Source of the DNA: Dysgonomonas mossii DSM 22836
GTDB lineage: Bacteria; Bacteroidota; Bacteroidia; Bacteroidales; Dysgonomonadaceae
Direction: 5' to 3'
NCBI RefSeq assembly: GCF_000213575.1
Contig: NZ_GL892008.1
Location: 129,584 to 193,583 of the forward strand
Length of the DNA: 64,000 bases
The stretch's first letter is position 1. The number at the start of each line of letters is the position of its first letter. Positions 13,337-21,233 of the stretch are shown here, piece after piece. A model generated the notes under the pieces. That model was not told where the DNA came from. It saw only the letters and a list, made by a program, of their open reading frames with translations, and searched no databases. The translations under genes were made by a program, and so were the position numbers.

Positions 13337-13711
13337 ATGATAAAAAAACAAACAGAAAGAAACGATCAACCCGATGATCTAGCCTCTTTAGTACCGACAG
13401 TAATTTGTGAAAAATTTACTCTTCGAGGCAATATAAAGCAAACTCGAGCGATTCGTATCGAAGGTACTATAATAGGAAACATTGAACAAGCTGAAACGGT
13501 GGTAATAGGAATGACAGGGACAATAAGAGGAAATGTGAATACAAAAAAACTTATTGTCTTTGGGCATATCGAAGGAGACATATTGGCTACCGAATCTGTA
13601 CGAATAAAGTGTTCGGGACAAATAACAGGGAGAATCAACACAGAAAATCTGAGTATGGAAGAGGGTGCTATGTATGAAGGCGAAATAATAATGAAGCCAT
13701 CCTCACTATAA
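13337..13711 (+). CDS. Bactofilin family cytoskeletal protein
   Basis: This 124-aa bactofilin has a beta-helical DUF583 core from about residue 20 to 115. The repeating pattern is visible: FTLRGNIKQTRAIRIEGTI, IGNIEQAETVVIGMTGTIRG, NVNTKKLIVFGHIEGDI, RINTENLSMEEGAMYEGEI. Bactofilins polymerise without nucleotide into membrane-associated filaments that organise cell-shape or polar functions. The tails here are short and there is no transmembrane helix. It is the first gene of a three-gene unit with a ParM-like actin and a second bactofilin, 61 nt before the actin start. Confidence 0.9.
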   Translation: MIKKQTERNDQPDDLASLVPTVICEKFTLRGNIKQTRAIRIEGTIIGNIEQAETVVIGMTGTIRGNVNTKKLIVFGHIEGDILATESVRIKCSGQITGRINTENLSMEEGAMYEGEIIMKPSSL

Positions 13712-13772
13712 GAAATATATAAAACATATAACGCTATTATTTTAATTGTTAAACACTTTTTTGAAAAAACCT

Positions 13773-14789
13773 ATGTATGAAATCCAATCCTTTCCGAGTT
13801 TAATTGAGATCAACAACACAGTTCTATCCCAAACCTCTAAAGATTTACTTCATGGTCTGAAGATTCAGCACAATGACAAATGGTATATCTGTGGTGATCT
13901 AGCCTTGAACGAAGGACAGTTACCTCATAAGCTGATAAACTCCTCTCCTGATGATATCGATTATCAGCTTCTTGCCAAAGCATCAATCCTGCTAGCACAG
14001 GACAAGATAGAACAACCGCTAACAATTACAACAGGCTTCCCCTATTCAACCTATTATATTTATAGAGATAAAGCTGTTGAATTCTTCAAAAAAACACACC
14101 TACTCGATTATGATGCATCAACCCACAATGCAGGGAATAAAAAGAAAGTTGTGCTGGATGTGCAAAGAGTTGAAGTCATTCCCGAAATTGTAGGATGCAC
14201 AATTGCAATACGAAAAGGACAGCCCAATGTTTCGGGAAGTTTTTTTGTATTTAGTTGCGGCTTCGGCACTTTCGAGTCTATCTTAAGCACCGATTCGGGA
14301 ATCGTAGAACAGGCAATGGTAAGTACACACGGAATCCGCTATGCTGTAAATCTGATGATCAACGAACTGAGGAGTAAATATTATCTCGAGTTGAGAAATA
14401 TAAATCAGCTGGACGATGCTTTTCAGCGAGGATATATCTTCTTAAATCGTCAGAATGTTGATTTAAGAGAAATTCGCAAAAATGTTATCCAGACATACTA
14501 TCAAGAAGTCATATCGCCCAATCTACGGAACATTATCAATGACTCCAACCTAGTGAAAACGAATCGGATATACTTATGCGGAGGTGCGATGTATTATCAG
14601 GAGTTGGTAGACTGTTTTATTGCAGAATTTGGACACTTCACAGAAATAACGGTATTGGATAATCCGGAAACACTCGCTAGCAAAGGATATGCTCTCAACT
14701 CTTTACGCCTCAGTGGCAGAAAAAGCTCGGCCCTTGGGATTGATATAGGCAATGCAACTACCGTGGTGACAAATTTCATAGGTGAATAG
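13773..14789 (+). CDS. ParM/StbA-like actin ATPase, apparently circularly permuted
   Basis: This 338-aa protein aligns by eye with ParM-type actins but with its motifs rotated. FPSLIEI and WYICGDLAL open the protein, followed by LTITTGFPYSTYY and VEVIPEIVG. The phosphate-2 region is FVFSCGFGTFE (near 158-168), the adenosine motif YLCGGAMYYQELVD (near 267-280), and ETLASKGYALNS comes after it. Only then, at residues 322-330, comes the phosphate-1 motif GIDIGNATT, which actins carry at the N-terminus; the protein stops eight residues later. Joining the C-terminus to the N-terminus recreates a canonical ParM start. Ser161 sits where the family has a catalytic Asp. I start at ATG 13773, since the nine-codon extension begins with TTG. 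It lies between two bactofilin genes. Confidence 0.8.
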   Translation: MYEIQSFPSLIEINNTVLSQTSKDLLHGLKIQHNDKWYICGDLALNEGQLPHKLINSSPDDIDYQLLAKASILLAQDKIEQPLTITTGFPYSTYYIYRDKAVEFFKKTHLLDYDASTHNAGNKKKVVLDVQRVEVIPEIVGCTIAIRKGQPNVSGSFFVFSCGFGTFESILSTDSGIVEQAMVSTHGIRYAVNLMINELRSKYYLELRNINQLDDAFQRGYIFLNRQNVDLREIRKNVIQTYYQEVISPNLRNIINDSNLVKTNRIYLCGGAMYYQELVDCFIAEFGHFTEITVLDNPETLASKGYALNSLRLSGRKSSALGIDIGNATTVVTNFIGE

Positions 14790-14809: not shown

Positions 14810-15385
14810 ATGTTTTTCATCAAACGAAAAAAAGTCAAACCTATAGAAAAAGAAACAGCAGAAGAAATAGCTGTATCAAATCAAGATAAAGTTGTTTTAG
14901 GTGCATTTTGCTTTACAGGAATGCAAAAAGGAAACTTTTTTGTAAAAGATAGGGCTATAGTAGATCCTGCTGCTACTGTTGATGGAAGCATAACGGCTAC
15001 CGATTGCACAATCGGTGGTTTGGTTAAAGGGAATGTATTTTGCTCAAACACCTTACAGCTTAGCAGTTCGGCAGTTATAGAGGGCTCAATTATGGCGAAA
15101 AAGGCTATTTTGGAAACGGGATGCAGAATTAACGGGTCGGTATCATTCGCTCCAAAAGTAGAAGTTTCAATGTTAGCTATAAAGCTTATAGAGGCTGAAA
15201 AAATTATAGCAAACAAAAAGATTTCTAAAACTCCAGAGCTTCTTACAGAAGAAGCGTACATACCCCCAAAAAGCCCTCCTATACCTGAAACAATGCCAGT
15301 GGGTAAAGAACAGAAAAAAATAAATACACAAAAGCCTGAATCAACAATAGCTCAATCCGTAGATAATGCTAATAATTGGTGGTAA
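14810..15385 (+). CDS. Bactofilin family protein with C-terminal tail
   Basis: This is a second bactofilin, 191 aa, starting 20 nt after the actin-like gene. The beta-helical core spans about residues 22-120 (FVKDRAIVDPAATVDGSI, TATDCTIGGLVKGNVFC, AVIEGSIMAKKAILETGC, RINGSV). Unlike the first copy it has a basic N-terminus (FFIKRKKVKP) and a ~65-residue low-complexity tail with PPKSPPIPE ending in NNWW. The tail may bind a partner such as the actin-like protein. A strong terminator follows, so the unit ends here. Confidence 0.85.
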   Translation: MFFIKRKKVKPIEKETAEEIAVSNQDKVVLGAFCFTGMQKGNFFVKDRAIVDPAATVDGSITATDCTIGGLVKGNVFCSNTLQLSSSAVIEGSIMAKKAILETGCRINGSVSFAPKVEVSMLAIKLIEAEKIIANKKISKTPELLTEEAYIPPKSPPIPETMPVGKEQKKINTQKPESTIAQSVDNANNWW

Positions 15386-17621: not shown

Positions 17622-18575
17622 TTATAGTTTCCAAAAAATTAAACTGGTTCTCATTGGTGTTATCTGTAAAGGTGCGGCTCTGGGATACCCCGTATATATA
17701 CCGGATGTTGTAGTGGCACCAATACGAAACGAAATCTTGTCTCCTTTATTTCCACTAGCCGTAAGAGTTAGCGTAGTAGTCAACTGACTGGCTGTGGGAT
17801 AGGCTGTCATATTTATCTCTGCTCCGTCTTCAAGAGTAACGTTCGAAGGTAAGTTATCGGCAGGCGTGAAATTATTGTCGCCTTTGAGTGCCCACAAATA
17901 CAACAATCCCCTGTACCTGTTAGAAGCAGCATTGGCCGATTGATCCATGTATAATCTGAAGGAGAATACATAAGATCCGGTTTCGGGTAAAGTAATAAAT
18001 GGTTCGTTCGTTTTGCCGGTAGCGGGATCAGCCCAAAGTAAAATTCTCGAACGAGCAGGTCTCTCATGGGCTTTTGAATTTGTTTCGGGCTGTACACGAT
18101 TACCCGACGCAACCCATAAATCTCTTCGCTCGATAACAGACGCAACTTCTTTTGTCTGTATTTCATTCCATTTATTATTGAAGAAGGTATATAAACCCGG
18201 TTCAAGTCCTATTCCCGGATTGTTGGTAGTATTATAAACTATCATTCCAGCTACAGGGTTGGCTACAGTAATATTGTCAGTAACACTTTTCAAAGCTATT
18301 CTGTTTGGTAGAAAAGCACTCTTAACTCCACCTAGTTGCAACTGTAGATTCGAATTATCTTCAGGAATAGCACCTACACCGACAGTCATACTACCCAAAG
18401 ACGAATTGACTGACAAGTCATCCTTTTTTTGTGCTTCCTGTATTGTACCGCTTTGAGGATTGTTCGCTGCTCCATCGATATGCAATGCTCCTTTAGGGTT
18501 TTGTGTTTTTATTCCGACCTGCCCATGAACATATAAAACACTTAAGCTGACAATCAATAATATTATTATTTTCAT
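17622..18575 (-). CDS. Secreted protein of tandem QVGI-type family (copy 4)
   Basis: This is a 317-aa exported protein of unknown function. The signal peptide MKIIILLIVSLSVLYVHG is followed directly by QVGIKTQNPKGALHID, a motif seen at the mature N-terminus of many Bacteroidetes surface proteins. A shared middle block has AFLPNRIALKSVTDN, GMIVYNT and EPGLYTFFNNKW. The C-terminal ~130 residues (TGSYVFSFRLY, GNKGDKISFRIG, TSLIFWKL) have the alternating pattern of a C1q/TNF-like jelly roll, which is my inference. It is last in a leftward row of four paralogues, 19 nt after the next one, and ends at a bidirectional terminator. Confidence 0.75.
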   Translation of the reverse strand: MKIIILLIVSLSVLYVHGQVGIKTQNPKGALHIDGAANNPQSGTIQEAQKKDDLSVNSSLGSMTVGVGAIPEDNSNLQLQLGGVKSAFLPNRIALKSVTDNITVANPVAGMIVYNTTNNPGIGLEPGLYTFFNNKWNEIQTKEVASVIERRDLWVASGNRVQPETNSKAHERPARSRILLWADPATGKTNEPFITLPETGSYVFSFRLYMDQSANAASNRYRGLLYLWALKGDNNFTPADNLPSNVTLEDGAEINMTAYPTASQLTTTLTLTASGNKGDKISFRIGATTTSGIYTGYPRAAPLQITPMRTSLIFWKL

Positions 18576-18594
18576 TTTTTCTGATTATTAAAAT

Positions 18595-19506
18595 TTACTG
18601 TATCTTCCAATATACAAAAGTGGTTCGGTTTGCCTCATTTTTGTTAGTACTACCACGAAGATCCCAATTCAGTGCGCCATTCCTACGTCCTATCTTTATA
18701 ATAATTTCATCATTTACTCTAAGATAGGGCGTGTACATTATTGGAAAGTAGGTGTTATTGGAGCTGCTGCTGGCAGCTTTGCCTACAACCATATCGACCC
18801 TACTCAATAAGACTTCGTTATCAGCTACTTTCTTAAACAAGTACAAATAGTAATCATCAGCTACCTGCCCCGTATTATTGGTATTACTGGCAGTTTTCAT
18901 ACTTCCGTATAGCCTAAAAGAAAATATATATATTCCTGCATCATTTATAATAATGCTTTGATCGAGAGGAAACAGATTTGCACCTGCTCCTGTAGTTATG
19001 TTTGTAAGGGGGGTGGCTGATACATTAGAAGCCAACGCTCCGATTTTTGAAACAGTACTTGTTCCACTGTCTTCATAGTCGATAAGCCTTAGCCATTCAT
19101 TATTCATATTCAGATAAGTACCCGGGCTGACATCATCTTCCTCCGACCCTGCGGTATTTGTATTGAAAACGATCATTCCATCATGCGGAGAGGGTACAGT
19201 ATTATTATCCGATGCCGACTCCAAAGCAACTCTATTGAGAAGCAAAGCTTTATCCGGGGCATTCAATTCGAGGGATGCTTCCTTATTCAAAGGTTCGCCG
19301 CCTATTACAAGATTTGCTTCGTTATTTGCATTCAGCTTGAATATTAAGTCATCTTTTAATTGACTACCGGTAGGGGTGGTCGAATTATTCTTTAGTACAT
19401 CTACATTAAGAATTCCAATCGGATTTGCAGTGCCAATTCCTACCTGAGCCGTACATGTGCCTGCTAATAAAATAGCAAGGAATAAAAATTGTATATACTT
19501 ATTCAT
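18595..19506 (-). CDS. Secreted protein of tandem QVGI-type family (copy 3)
   Basis: This is a 303-aa exported protein. I start at ATG 19506 (MNKYIQFLFLAILLAGTCTA), as the longer frame from 19566 overlaps the preceding gene and would bury the signal peptide. The mature end is QVGIGTANPIGILNVD. ALLLNRVALESASDN, GMIVFNT and PGTYLNMNNEWLRL match its neighbours. The C-terminus shows GIYIFSFRLYG, LRVNDEIIIKIGR and TTFVYWKIQ, a likely jelly-roll module. Function is unknown; gene order and shared blocks indicate duplication within one operon. Confidence 0.75.
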   Translation of the reverse strand: MNKYIQFLFLAILLAGTCTAQVGIGTANPIGILNVDVLKNNSTTPTGSQLKDDLIFKLNANNEANLVIGGEPLNKEASLELNAPDKALLLNRVALESASDNNTVPSPHDGMIVFNTNTAGSEEDDVSPGTYLNMNNEWLRLIDYEDSGTSTVSKIGALASNVSATPLTNITTGAGANLFPLDQSIIINDAGIYIFSFRLYGSMKTASNTNNTGQVADDYYLYLFKKVADNEVLLSRVDMVVGKAASSSSNNTYFPIMYTPYLRVNDEIIIKIGRRNGALNWDLRGSTNKNEANRTTFVYWKIQ

Positions 19507-19517
19507 TTGCTTCTTTT

Positions 19518-20414
19518 TTAGATTTTGAAAAAGACAATTGAAGTTTCTCCCGGCTTTAAAGTCCACGAAGGAGTACCTTCATATGAAGCAATCCGTACCG
19601 AAATCCTTTCTCCCCGATGAGCATCAAATCCTAAAGTAAGCGGATATGTGACACCCCCGGTTCTGCTTCCTTGCGAAAAGGCGGTGGGGTCTATTTCGGC
19701 TATATCTAAGACTTTATCTACAGTCCCATCACTTTTTAGTGAGACGGCAGCAACATATATCGTCATTTTCTGAAAGGATGAAACAGAGGGTATAGCCCCT
19801 GATAAGGTAAGCATCATAGCATAAGCTGCATCCGACATTACTTCTATATAATTGGTAGGGGTAGATGCACCTACAGCTACGAGATTTAAAGGGGCAAAAC
19901 CGGCTGTCCCGTTTGCGGAATTATATAACTTTGTAGTTGGCAGAGTCAGCTCAGAATAAAGTGTATATATCTTCGTCTGCCTGTTGCTTGATTCTGTAAG
20001 ACAATACATCCATTTATTTAGAGCACTATTGAAAACATATAAGCCGGGGATAACGTTATTGGGCACCTCTCCTCCTCTAGCCGTATTATAAACAACCATT
20101 CCGTCCACAGGATTTTTAATAGGATTACCTGCTGCATTTCCCCGAGCATCAACAAGGGCTACAGAGTTAGGAATAAAAGCTTTATTATTGGCTCCTAAAC
20201 TAACCGAAGCCGAAGGGTGTTCGACATCATTTATTGAAACCGAAAGTCCGTCACTACCATCACTACCTACCAAAACTCCTTTGTTGTCGGCAGGCAATGT
20301 TAGGCTTTTTATATGCAGTGCGCCTTCGGGTGACACAGCATTGATACCAACTTGAGAATAAAGTGAATAAGCACTAAAAACGAAGAGTAGTCCACAAAAA
20401 ATTATTTTTTTCAT
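19518..20414 (-). CDS. Secreted protein of tandem QVGI-type family (copy 2)
   Basis: This is a ~298-aa exported protein. I prefer ATG 20414 (MKKIIFCGLLFVFSAYSLYS) to the upstream ATG at 20438. QVGINAVSPEGALHI follows the signal peptide. The shared blocks are KAFIPNSVALVDARGN, GMVVYNTARGG and PGLYVFNSALNKWMY. The C-terminal domain (YAMMLTLSGAIP, GFDAHRGERISVRIAS, SIVFFKI) resembles that of copies 3 and 4. The stop lies 11 nt before the start of copy 3. Confidence 0.75.
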   Translation of the reverse strand: MKKIIFCGLLFVFSAYSLYSQVGINAVSPEGALHIKSLTLPADNKGVLVGSDGSDGLSVSINDVEHPSASVSLGANNKAFIPNSVALVDARGNAAGNPIKNPVDGMVVYNTARGGEVPNNVIPGLYVFNSALNKWMYCLTESSNRQTKIYTLYSELTLPTTKLYNSANGTAGFAPLNLVAVGASTPTNYIEVMSDAAYAMMLTLSGAIPSVSSFQKMTIYVAAVSLKSDGTVDKVLDIAEIDPTAFSQGSRTGGVTYPLTLGFDAHRGERISVRIASYEGTPSWTLKPGETSIVFFKI

Positions 20415-20441
20415 TTCGAATCTATGTTGAGTTTTCATTCA

Positions 20442-21233
20442 CTATCTAATAAAATATGATCCCGAGACAACAATTATGTCATTGGTTACAATTGTTCCCA
20501 TATTCATAAAGGTTCCTACACTCTCGCTTACATTTTGAATATAAATATTTCCATCGAAATCAATTGTGGACTCTGCTGTAGTTGATATATTTCTTGCAGG
20601 GAAGTTCACTAAACAATTTATATTCATATCACTCTGACTCGTCACTGTTGTAGAAGCAAAGGGTTTATATGTATCTTTATCTGTTCCGCTTGATATTTCA
20701 GCTATCTTCTGCGAATTATGAGCAGTATTCCAAACACTAATATTTGCTCCTATTCGTTTTAGTTTGACAATAAAGTTAACAGCTTTACCATAACTTCTAA
20801 ATTCTTGGCTTATTATCGACCAGCCGCTAGTAGCCTGCCAAAGATTAGCGAGTACCACATCAGGTATTTCAATATCACCAGCTCCTGATCCTACTCGTAT
20901 CCACTGAGTTCCATCATTATAGTAACACCCTTCGAAAACGTCGTCATCTATATCTTTTGTGTTATATACGAGCATTCCTTTAACATGCTCATTAAGTGGG
21001 CTCTTATTATTCAATGCGATCAGCTCAACACGAGGGAGTAATAGACCTTTTGTTGCTGTCCCATTACTATTTTCTTTCAGATCGAGCAACGCATCTTGAT
21101 GCGGAGAAACACTAGTACCGATTGTTACTTGCCCTTGTATGTGTTGCGGCATAAAAAGTAGAATCCCAAATAGTAACAACACTCCGGACACTGTCCATCC
21201 ACGTTGTTTTTGATTAAAGTTTGTTTGTTTCAT
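20442..21233 (-). CDS. Secreted protein of tandem QVGI-type family (copy 1, divergent)
   Basis: This 263-aa protein is the promoter-proximal gene of the row. It has a long signal (residues 13-34, VSGVLLLFGILLFMPQHIQG) and QVTIGTSVSPHQDALLDL. LLLPRVELIALNNKSPL, GMLVYNTKD and GCYYNDGTQWIRV correspond to the shared blocks. Its C-terminal ~130 residues differ from the others and end GTIVTNDIIVVSGSYFIR, more like a tail-fibre or adhesin end. Function is unknown. The gap to copy 2 is about 27 nt. Confidence 0.72.
   Translation of the reverse strand: MKQTNFNQKQRGWTVSGVLLLFGILLFMPQHIQGQVTIGTSVSPHQDALLDLKENSNGTATKGLLLPRVELIALNNKSPLNEHVKGMLVYNTKDIDDDVFEGCYYNDGTQWIRVGSGAGDIEIPDVVLANLWQATSGWSIISQEFRSYGKAVNFIVKLKRIGANISVWNTAHNSQKIAEISSGTDKDTYKPFASTTVTSQSDMNINCLVNFPARNISTTAESTIDFDGNIYIQNVSESVGTFMNMGTIVTNDIIVVSGSYFIR

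Follow-up and report, generated by a model that had tools for sequence, protein, structure and literature searches.

What does it mean for a protein of the actin family if its phosphate-1 DxG hairpin, the first chain element in ParM/ALP proteins, is located at the opposite end of the chain? The question is raised by a gene in the window, i.e., the whole stretch of 64,000 nucleotides of Dysgonomonas mossii DSM 22836 that was analysed here. It translates into 338 residues with a single stop at its end (Table 1), and in contrast to ParM/ALP proteins the hairpin is found at the C-terminal end in all 33 members of the family alignment, from which one split copy (in genome G010) was left out. The permuted order in every aligned relative, together with the usual position of the gene beside bactofilin genes, suggests a two-part bacterial skeleton.

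Table 1. Features of the actin-bactofilin locus, given in positions of the window
Feature	Position	Strand	Basis
Bactofilin A, 124 aa, directly upstream	13337..13711	+	Pfam Bactofilin E 6.6e-24
Predicted circularly permuted ParM/ALP-type actin homologue, 338 aa	13773..14789	+	ALP_N E 1.3e-11, phrog_691 E 2.1e-17, homologues, model
FPSLI, residues 7-11; probable third strand of the normal fold, now N-terminus	13791..13805	+	S9 in 33/33; alignment with unpermuted ALPs
VEVIPE, residues 133-138, with putative catalytic-Glu equivalent E138	14169..14186	+	E in 33/33; Glu-148 catalytic in PMC3794156
FSCGFGTFE, residues 160-168; predicted phosphate-2 loop without the usual Asp (S161)	14250..14276	+	position 161 across 33 members
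YLCGGAMYY, residues 267-275; predicted adenosine-motif Gly pair	14571..14597	+	G270, G271 in 33/33
Predicted linker, old C-terminal helix to relocated hairpin, residues 315-319	14715..14729	+	modelled helix 298-314, strand 320-324; G305-G322 spacing
Predicted relocated phosphate-1 beta-hairpin, residues 320-333, ALGIDIGNATTVVT	14730..14771	+	G/D/G/N/T invariant in 33/33; model strands; re-joining
Bactofilin B, 191 aa, directly downstream, C-terminus NNWW	14810..15385	+	Pfam Bactofilin E 2e-14
C-terminal WW codons of bactofilin B (proposed docking tail)	15377..15382	+	Trp/Phe in 23/23; background 4 Trp in 244

Motif order and predicted fold

A sequence-only reading of this DNA had listed the motifs in an order that ends with GIDIGNATTVV at residues 322-332, and the translation bears this out: LTITTGFPYSTYY (residues 83-95) lies between FPSLI and VEVIPE, the remaining motifs follow as given in Table 1, and the C-terminal block is in frame. 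An in-frame TTG at 13746, which precedes this start by 27 bases, could serve instead; the protein would then be nine residues longer, with no motif added. The Pfam domain ALP_N (PF17989) matches residues 4-141 on profile positions 18-148 (45.4 bits, cut-off 26.3), and, since the match starts at position 18, the first 17 positions of the domain are missing at the N-terminus. The profile phrog_691, annotated as 'partition protein', covers residues 26-307 on its positions 44-319 of 329. ALP_N homology at an E value of 0.1 or better was obtained for 14 of 16 members.

Re-joining, by which the C-terminal block was placed in silico before the N-terminus, led to an uninterrupted ALP_N match that begins at position 1 in all five proteins so treated (the window protein, L014, L018, L022 and L031), with gains of 6.1 to 8.9 bits over a control of the same run, which was a shuffled tail for two proteins and a native fragment for three. 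For a second profile, 60 unpermuted ALPs were used, including 49 that originate from viral contigs. On this profile, 24 of the 33 re-joined proteins with untrimmed ends reached position 6 or lower at a mean gain of 1.7 bits that included some losses, the largest of 3.7 bits. With the ends trimmed alike, 30 of 33 extended through the join (position 8 or lower) compared to 16 of 3300 shuffled-tail controls. The re-joined score exceeded those of all 100 shuffles in 20 of the 33 and was equalled or beaten by at least one in 13; in the case of the window protein, this was true of 4 among its 100 shuffles. Thus, the earlier claim that re-joining restores a normal ParM opening holds for ALP_N and for the 60-ALP profile, but not for an hhalign comparison with four unpermuted plasmid ALPs, a shallow profile, on which nothing was gained (67.6 versus 67.7).

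When the permuted proteins were aligned with 34 unpermuted viral ALPs, the same arrangement emerged: nearly all of these ALPs carry an extra LGIDIG-type hairpin ahead of the start of the permuted proteins (one row is incomplete), and they end before the C-terminal ALGIDIGNATTVV of the permuted ones. When the family profile was compared to PDB sequences, its pieces fell on BiP in permuted order, the match of the moved piece being very weak (at most 0.5 bits). By re-joining, alignment and the 60-ALP profile, the family segments are rotated, the old ends joined and new ends created. We therefore regard the protein as almost certainly a circular permutation of a ParM/ALP-type actin, in which the first hairpin follows the last helix and the third strand opens the chain. 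As a matter of sequence the permutation is near certain, and as a fold it is likely.

A first AlphaFold model based on five close sequences was poor (pLDDT 41.8) and was discarded. The second, based on 39 rows including the 34 unpermuted viral ALPs, reached a pLDDT of 73.3 and a pTM of 0.76 and ends in a helix (298-314) and two strands (320-324 and 328-333). The mean pLDDT is 65 for residues 321-330 and 47 for 331-338, low to middling over the last 18 residues. Residues 320-338 face gaps almost throughout in the unpermuted rows, so that the placement of the hairpin was not dictated by these rows. Foldseek matched the model to pCBH ParM (TM 0.59-0.62 by query length) and Ta0583 (0.50-0.55), and further to Dh-cParM1, Alp12, pSK41 ParM, ParM R1, MreB3 and Hsp70; among the 50 matches listed, the TM by query length was moderate (0.44-0.62). 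The model thus has an actin fold at moderate TM with the hairpin at its C-terminus, in agreement with what had been proposed from the letters. The sequence-only reading had not taken in the bactofilin neighbours, the breadth of the family, the second permuted group (on plasmids) or the absence of the phosphate-2 Asp.

In such a fold the hairpin would turn back in cis beside the phosphate-2 loop and complete an ordinary ATP pocket, and the new termini would be located at the beta2-beta3 turn of subdomain IA. Alternatively, the hairpin might be swapped and complete the fold of a neighbouring subunit by donor-strand exchange, in which case the permutation itself would be the mechanism of polymerisation. 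This would fit a hairpin that is now a terminal element, a first-hairpin slot that is empty in each chain without it, and the near-constant spacing of 16-17 residues between G305 and G322 in all 33 members. However, the linker proper comprises only about five residues in the model, which favours folding back in cis, and actin folds normally polymerise without swaps. We thus consider a swap improbable and the cis fold fairly probable.

Bactofilin neighbours and a conserved C-terminal residue

The order bactofilin-actin-bactofilin seen in the window recurs at the other two copies of the gene in the same genome (three copies, 100, 91 and 82% identical). Pfam bactofilins were mapped in 25 genomes chosen for having the permuted gene, which comprise 30 permuted loci. 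A bactofilin is located within 3 kb at 23 of these, compared to 0.11 expected from bactofilin density, and two are present at six; the four loci from named records (Parapedobacter koreensis and three Sphingobacterium species) all have two. The permuted actin gene is, hence, linked to bactofilin genes. Seven of the 30 loci have no bactofilin within 3 kb (G073, G094, G191, G428, G231, G263 and G179), and at the five of these seven that were read no Trp-ending neighbour lies directly beside the actin gene. At G073 (L154:1308-5027), a 1239-residue pentapeptide-repeat protein is encoded directly upstream, possibly another beta-helix protein that replaces the bactofilin. In the genome of the window, the three cassettes, on contigs C2, C5 and C7, hold six of the seven bactofilin matches. 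Elsewhere in the window, four consecutive secreted-looking ORFs with similar openings form a tandem family (17622-21233, minus strand).

Genes for M23 peptidases are located upstream in the clusters of P. koreensis, Sphingobacterium alkalisoli and G284, with a Pfam M23 match in three of three; these clusters were picked after their ORFs had been read. Gene clusters of bactofilin and M23 peptidase have been described as a morphogenesis unit, according to the available part of that study (PMC10945521).

The directly downstream bactofilins share a further property. Among the 23 complete cases, which are kin and not independent, 21 end in Trp and two in Phe behind a variable tail, and neither residue occurs at the C-terminus of the ten upstream bactofilins. 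The background, 244 other ORFs of at least 100 codons from the window and 21 loci, includes 4 Trp and 18 Phe ends. The count omits L026, which is truncated where its contig stops, as well as G284, G111 and G405, whose bactofilins are more than 1.2 kb away; that of G284 stands behind a further gene, and its complete bactofilin ends in SP. C-terminal tails of bactofilins are usually short and poorly conserved, and the tail of Myxococcus BacP binds a client, as stated in the accessible part of PMC12448750. The Trp/Phe tail may be a docking peptide. That it docks on the actin itself is conceivable and somewhat doubtful.

The locus looks unlike the parM loci that are usual on plasmids. A genome-encoded ParM-type filament for DNA segregation, permuted by chance and with bactofilins as accidental neighbours or DNA anchors, would agree with the best family matches, ALP_N and the 'partition protein' phrog_691, with a distant plasmid group (see below) that is likewise permuted and followed by a small gene in the parR position, and with the existence of chromosomal ParMs, which is documented in the available part of PMC12270681. 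Nevertheless, the strength of the bactofilin linkage over the expected value, the flanking of the window gene by bactofilins on both sides and the conserved bactofilin tail make such a filament an unlikely explanation. A phage or plasmid origin of the gene in the window was not borne out either, as the protein had no match in phage and plasmid sequences and no confirmed relative in viral contigs. A bactofilin-coupled cytoskeleton of the envelope or of cell shape is, in our view, quite probably the function. It is the best supported one, with segregation and the swapped hairpin as live rivals.

Conservation and active site

The gene is distributed in a patchy manner. A profile search identified it in 24 of 395 genomes and 12 of 171 genera of the phylum, one of the 24 genomes having only a fragment at a contig end (L035), which was dropped; within the genus it is present in 3 of 25 genomes, that of the window included. 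The four named records carry copies that are 73-76% identical. In a class-wide sample the gene was found in 5 of 294 genomes, all of them already known, with D. mossii among them, and no new copy was added. A scan of the genome contigs with the single protein yielded no relative, in contrast to the profile search. A genome-wide search with PF17989 recovered none in 101 relatives, the gene-bearing D. mossii included, and is a negative without weight. The genome search with phrog_691 had matches in all 296 genomes, including one ordinary unpermuted ALP (L049) among the matches listed; we take most of these to be weak hits on other proteins with an actin fold.

Pairwise identity among the 33 aligned members has a median of 42% and a minimum of 35%, and 42 positions are invariant in all of them, including G322, D324, G326, N327 and T330 of the moved block as well as E138, G163, G165, G270, G271 and G305. 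A pattern search of the first 45 aligned residues and of the upstream codons back to the preceding in-frame stop revealed no DxG-like block in any of the 33. An unconserved tail and a normal motif at the N-terminus, which the sequence-only reading had named as the outcome that would speak against it, are thereby excluded, since every member keeps the C-terminal DIGNATT block and lacks an N-terminal copy. Over the 14 codons around the moved block, 2-12 synonymous differences per pair are opposed to 0-3 that change an amino acid (21 pairs from seven copies). Over the whole gene, amino-acid-changing differences between the seven copies are few and synonymous ones many, the latter often saturated. 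This pattern is indicative of strong purifying selection. That the order is permuted and conserved, and that the moved block is under selection, can be read directly from the sequences.

For ParM R1, the available part of PMC3794156 places the phosphate loops at residues 9-13 and 173-175 and names Glu-148 and Asp-170 as catalytic residues. By our reading of the motifs, E138 would be the equivalent of Glu-148, and position 161 that of Asp-170. The catalytic Glu and the adenosine-site Gly pair (E138, G270 and G271) are kept in 33 of 33 members, while the phosphate-2 loop is present with its Asp position occupied by Ser in 30, Gly in two and Asn in one. As the Asp is replaced and the Glu is kept, hydrolysis might be slow or altered. 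An unpermuted ALP from a Clostridioides phage (L080:826-1740) also has a Ser at this position.

The missing Asp might also be taken to indicate an N-terminally truncated pseudo-actin that is free of nucleotide, its DIGN block being an unrelated tail or a stray phosphate-2-like motif, and the tail does have a weak second hhalign match (E 0.041), which falls on the phosphate-2 loop. However, residues 160-168 already provide such a loop, and a truncated actin with an unrelated tail is contradicted by the missing ALP_N positions, which are matched in five of five re-joined proteins, and by the invariant G, D, G, N and T of the block, so that we judge the pseudo-actin very improbable. An artefact of assembly, frame or gene calling, as might be suspected from a relative in G010 (L012:7002-8022) whose gene breaks up into two overlapping frames around residue 262, is refuted by the uninterrupted full-length copies at three places in the same genome and in other genera and by the strong purifying selection, and has next to no probability. 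Candidate causes for the split in G010 are a frameshift, an assembly error or decay.

Proposed mechanism and relation to known systems

Permuted ALPs also occur on plasmids as a distant group (L081:356-1384, L084:5001-6038, L085:2001-3020 and L086:2001-3044). L081, annotated as a hypothetical protein on Aeromonas plasmids, matches the family profile along most of the chain and has the C-terminus GLDIGNAYLKGVFDV, with no N-terminal copy seen; relatives with the same arrangement are encoded on other Aeromonas plasmids (59 and 51% identity) and on a plasmid of Pigmentibacter ruber (35%). A further copy on an Aeromonas media plasmid (L087:1288-3624) is interrupted by an ISKpn9-type element. Behind the plasmid copies, at the place that parR would take, a small gene is located, which measures about 120 codons or, in Pigmentibacter, 93; two such genes that were tested had no Pfam match. 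The copy of pMCR5_045096 is located near mobI and mobH, the MobH relaxase gene. In a tree, the group from genomes forms one side of a branch (93/95), as does the plasmid group (100/100). Since the unpermuted long-branch L080 joins both permuted groups, the tree does not settle whether they have a single origin.

Taken together, we regard as probable a permuted actin in the cis fold that works with a bactofilin scaffold on the envelope or cell shape. Filament formation would be driven by ATP binding, with the slow or altered hydrolysis discussed above. Through its C-terminal residue, the polymerised bactofilin would dock either on the actin or on a partner common to both, by which a bactofilin scaffold at the membrane and an actin that responds to ATP could act together on the envelope or the shape of the cell. 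In some species an M23 peptidoglycan peptidase may join in, and the role would not be plasmid partition. More tentatively, one may envisage a composite cytoskeleton with a filament that the loss of the phosphate-2 Asp would render nucleotide-locked or slowly hydrolysing, which would be attached to the bactofilin scaffold by the C-terminal Trp of the bactofilin and might even exchange the hairpin between subunits; we rate this version as rather doubtful.

If the permutation holds true, it is a natural one within the actin family, which is conserved throughout 12 genera sampled from a single phylum and also occurs in a distantly related group on plasmids. The order of elements in the actin fold would then not be fixed, and the two distant groups would show that the fold tolerates rotation in nature. 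It would also provide a handle on whether a phosphate-1 hairpin at the chain end alters nucleotide sensing and filament contacts. A coupling to bactofilin would physically link two cytoskeletons, for which the conserved Trp/Phe offers a simple test.

No paper on a permuted actin was found in the open-licence PMC literature, in part among the best matches listed only. In CIRPIN, 'ParM' occurs once, as an author name in the references. PMC7203096, which was matched by 'circularly permuted' and actin-like, lacks the former term in its available part, and a term search of the chromosomal ParM survey PMC12270681 returned no word beginning with 'permut', 'Bacteroid' or 'bactofilin'.

Among the known systems, the protein shares with ParM/ALP proteins (pCBH ParM, Dh-cParM1, Alp12, pSK41 ParM and ParM R1) the ALP_N homology, the adenosine Gly pair, the catalytic Glu, a Gly-containing phosphate-2 loop and the overall fold of the model. 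It differs from them in the C-terminal phosphate-1 hairpin, the lack of the phosphate-2 Asp in 33 of 33 members and the bactofilin neighbours. With MreB it has in common the actin fold and, presumably, a shape-related setting; Pfam MreB_Mbl matches eight of 16 members weakly and is below the cut-off in the member shown here. The SrpMRC system of SXT/R391, in which srpM lies beside mobI according to the accessible part of PMC4489591, resembles the permuted ALP of pMCR5_045096 in gene neighbourhood, the small gene on the downstream side included, and that text has no word beginning with 'permut'. The BacA-LmdC clusters of bactofilin and M23 peptidase, whose description in the available part of PMC10945521 does not mention a permuted actin, correspond to the P. 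koreensis, S. alkalisoli and G284 loci in having both bactofilin and M23 genes. In contrast to these clusters, the loci described here encode a downstream bactofilin with a conserved C-terminal Trp/Phe.
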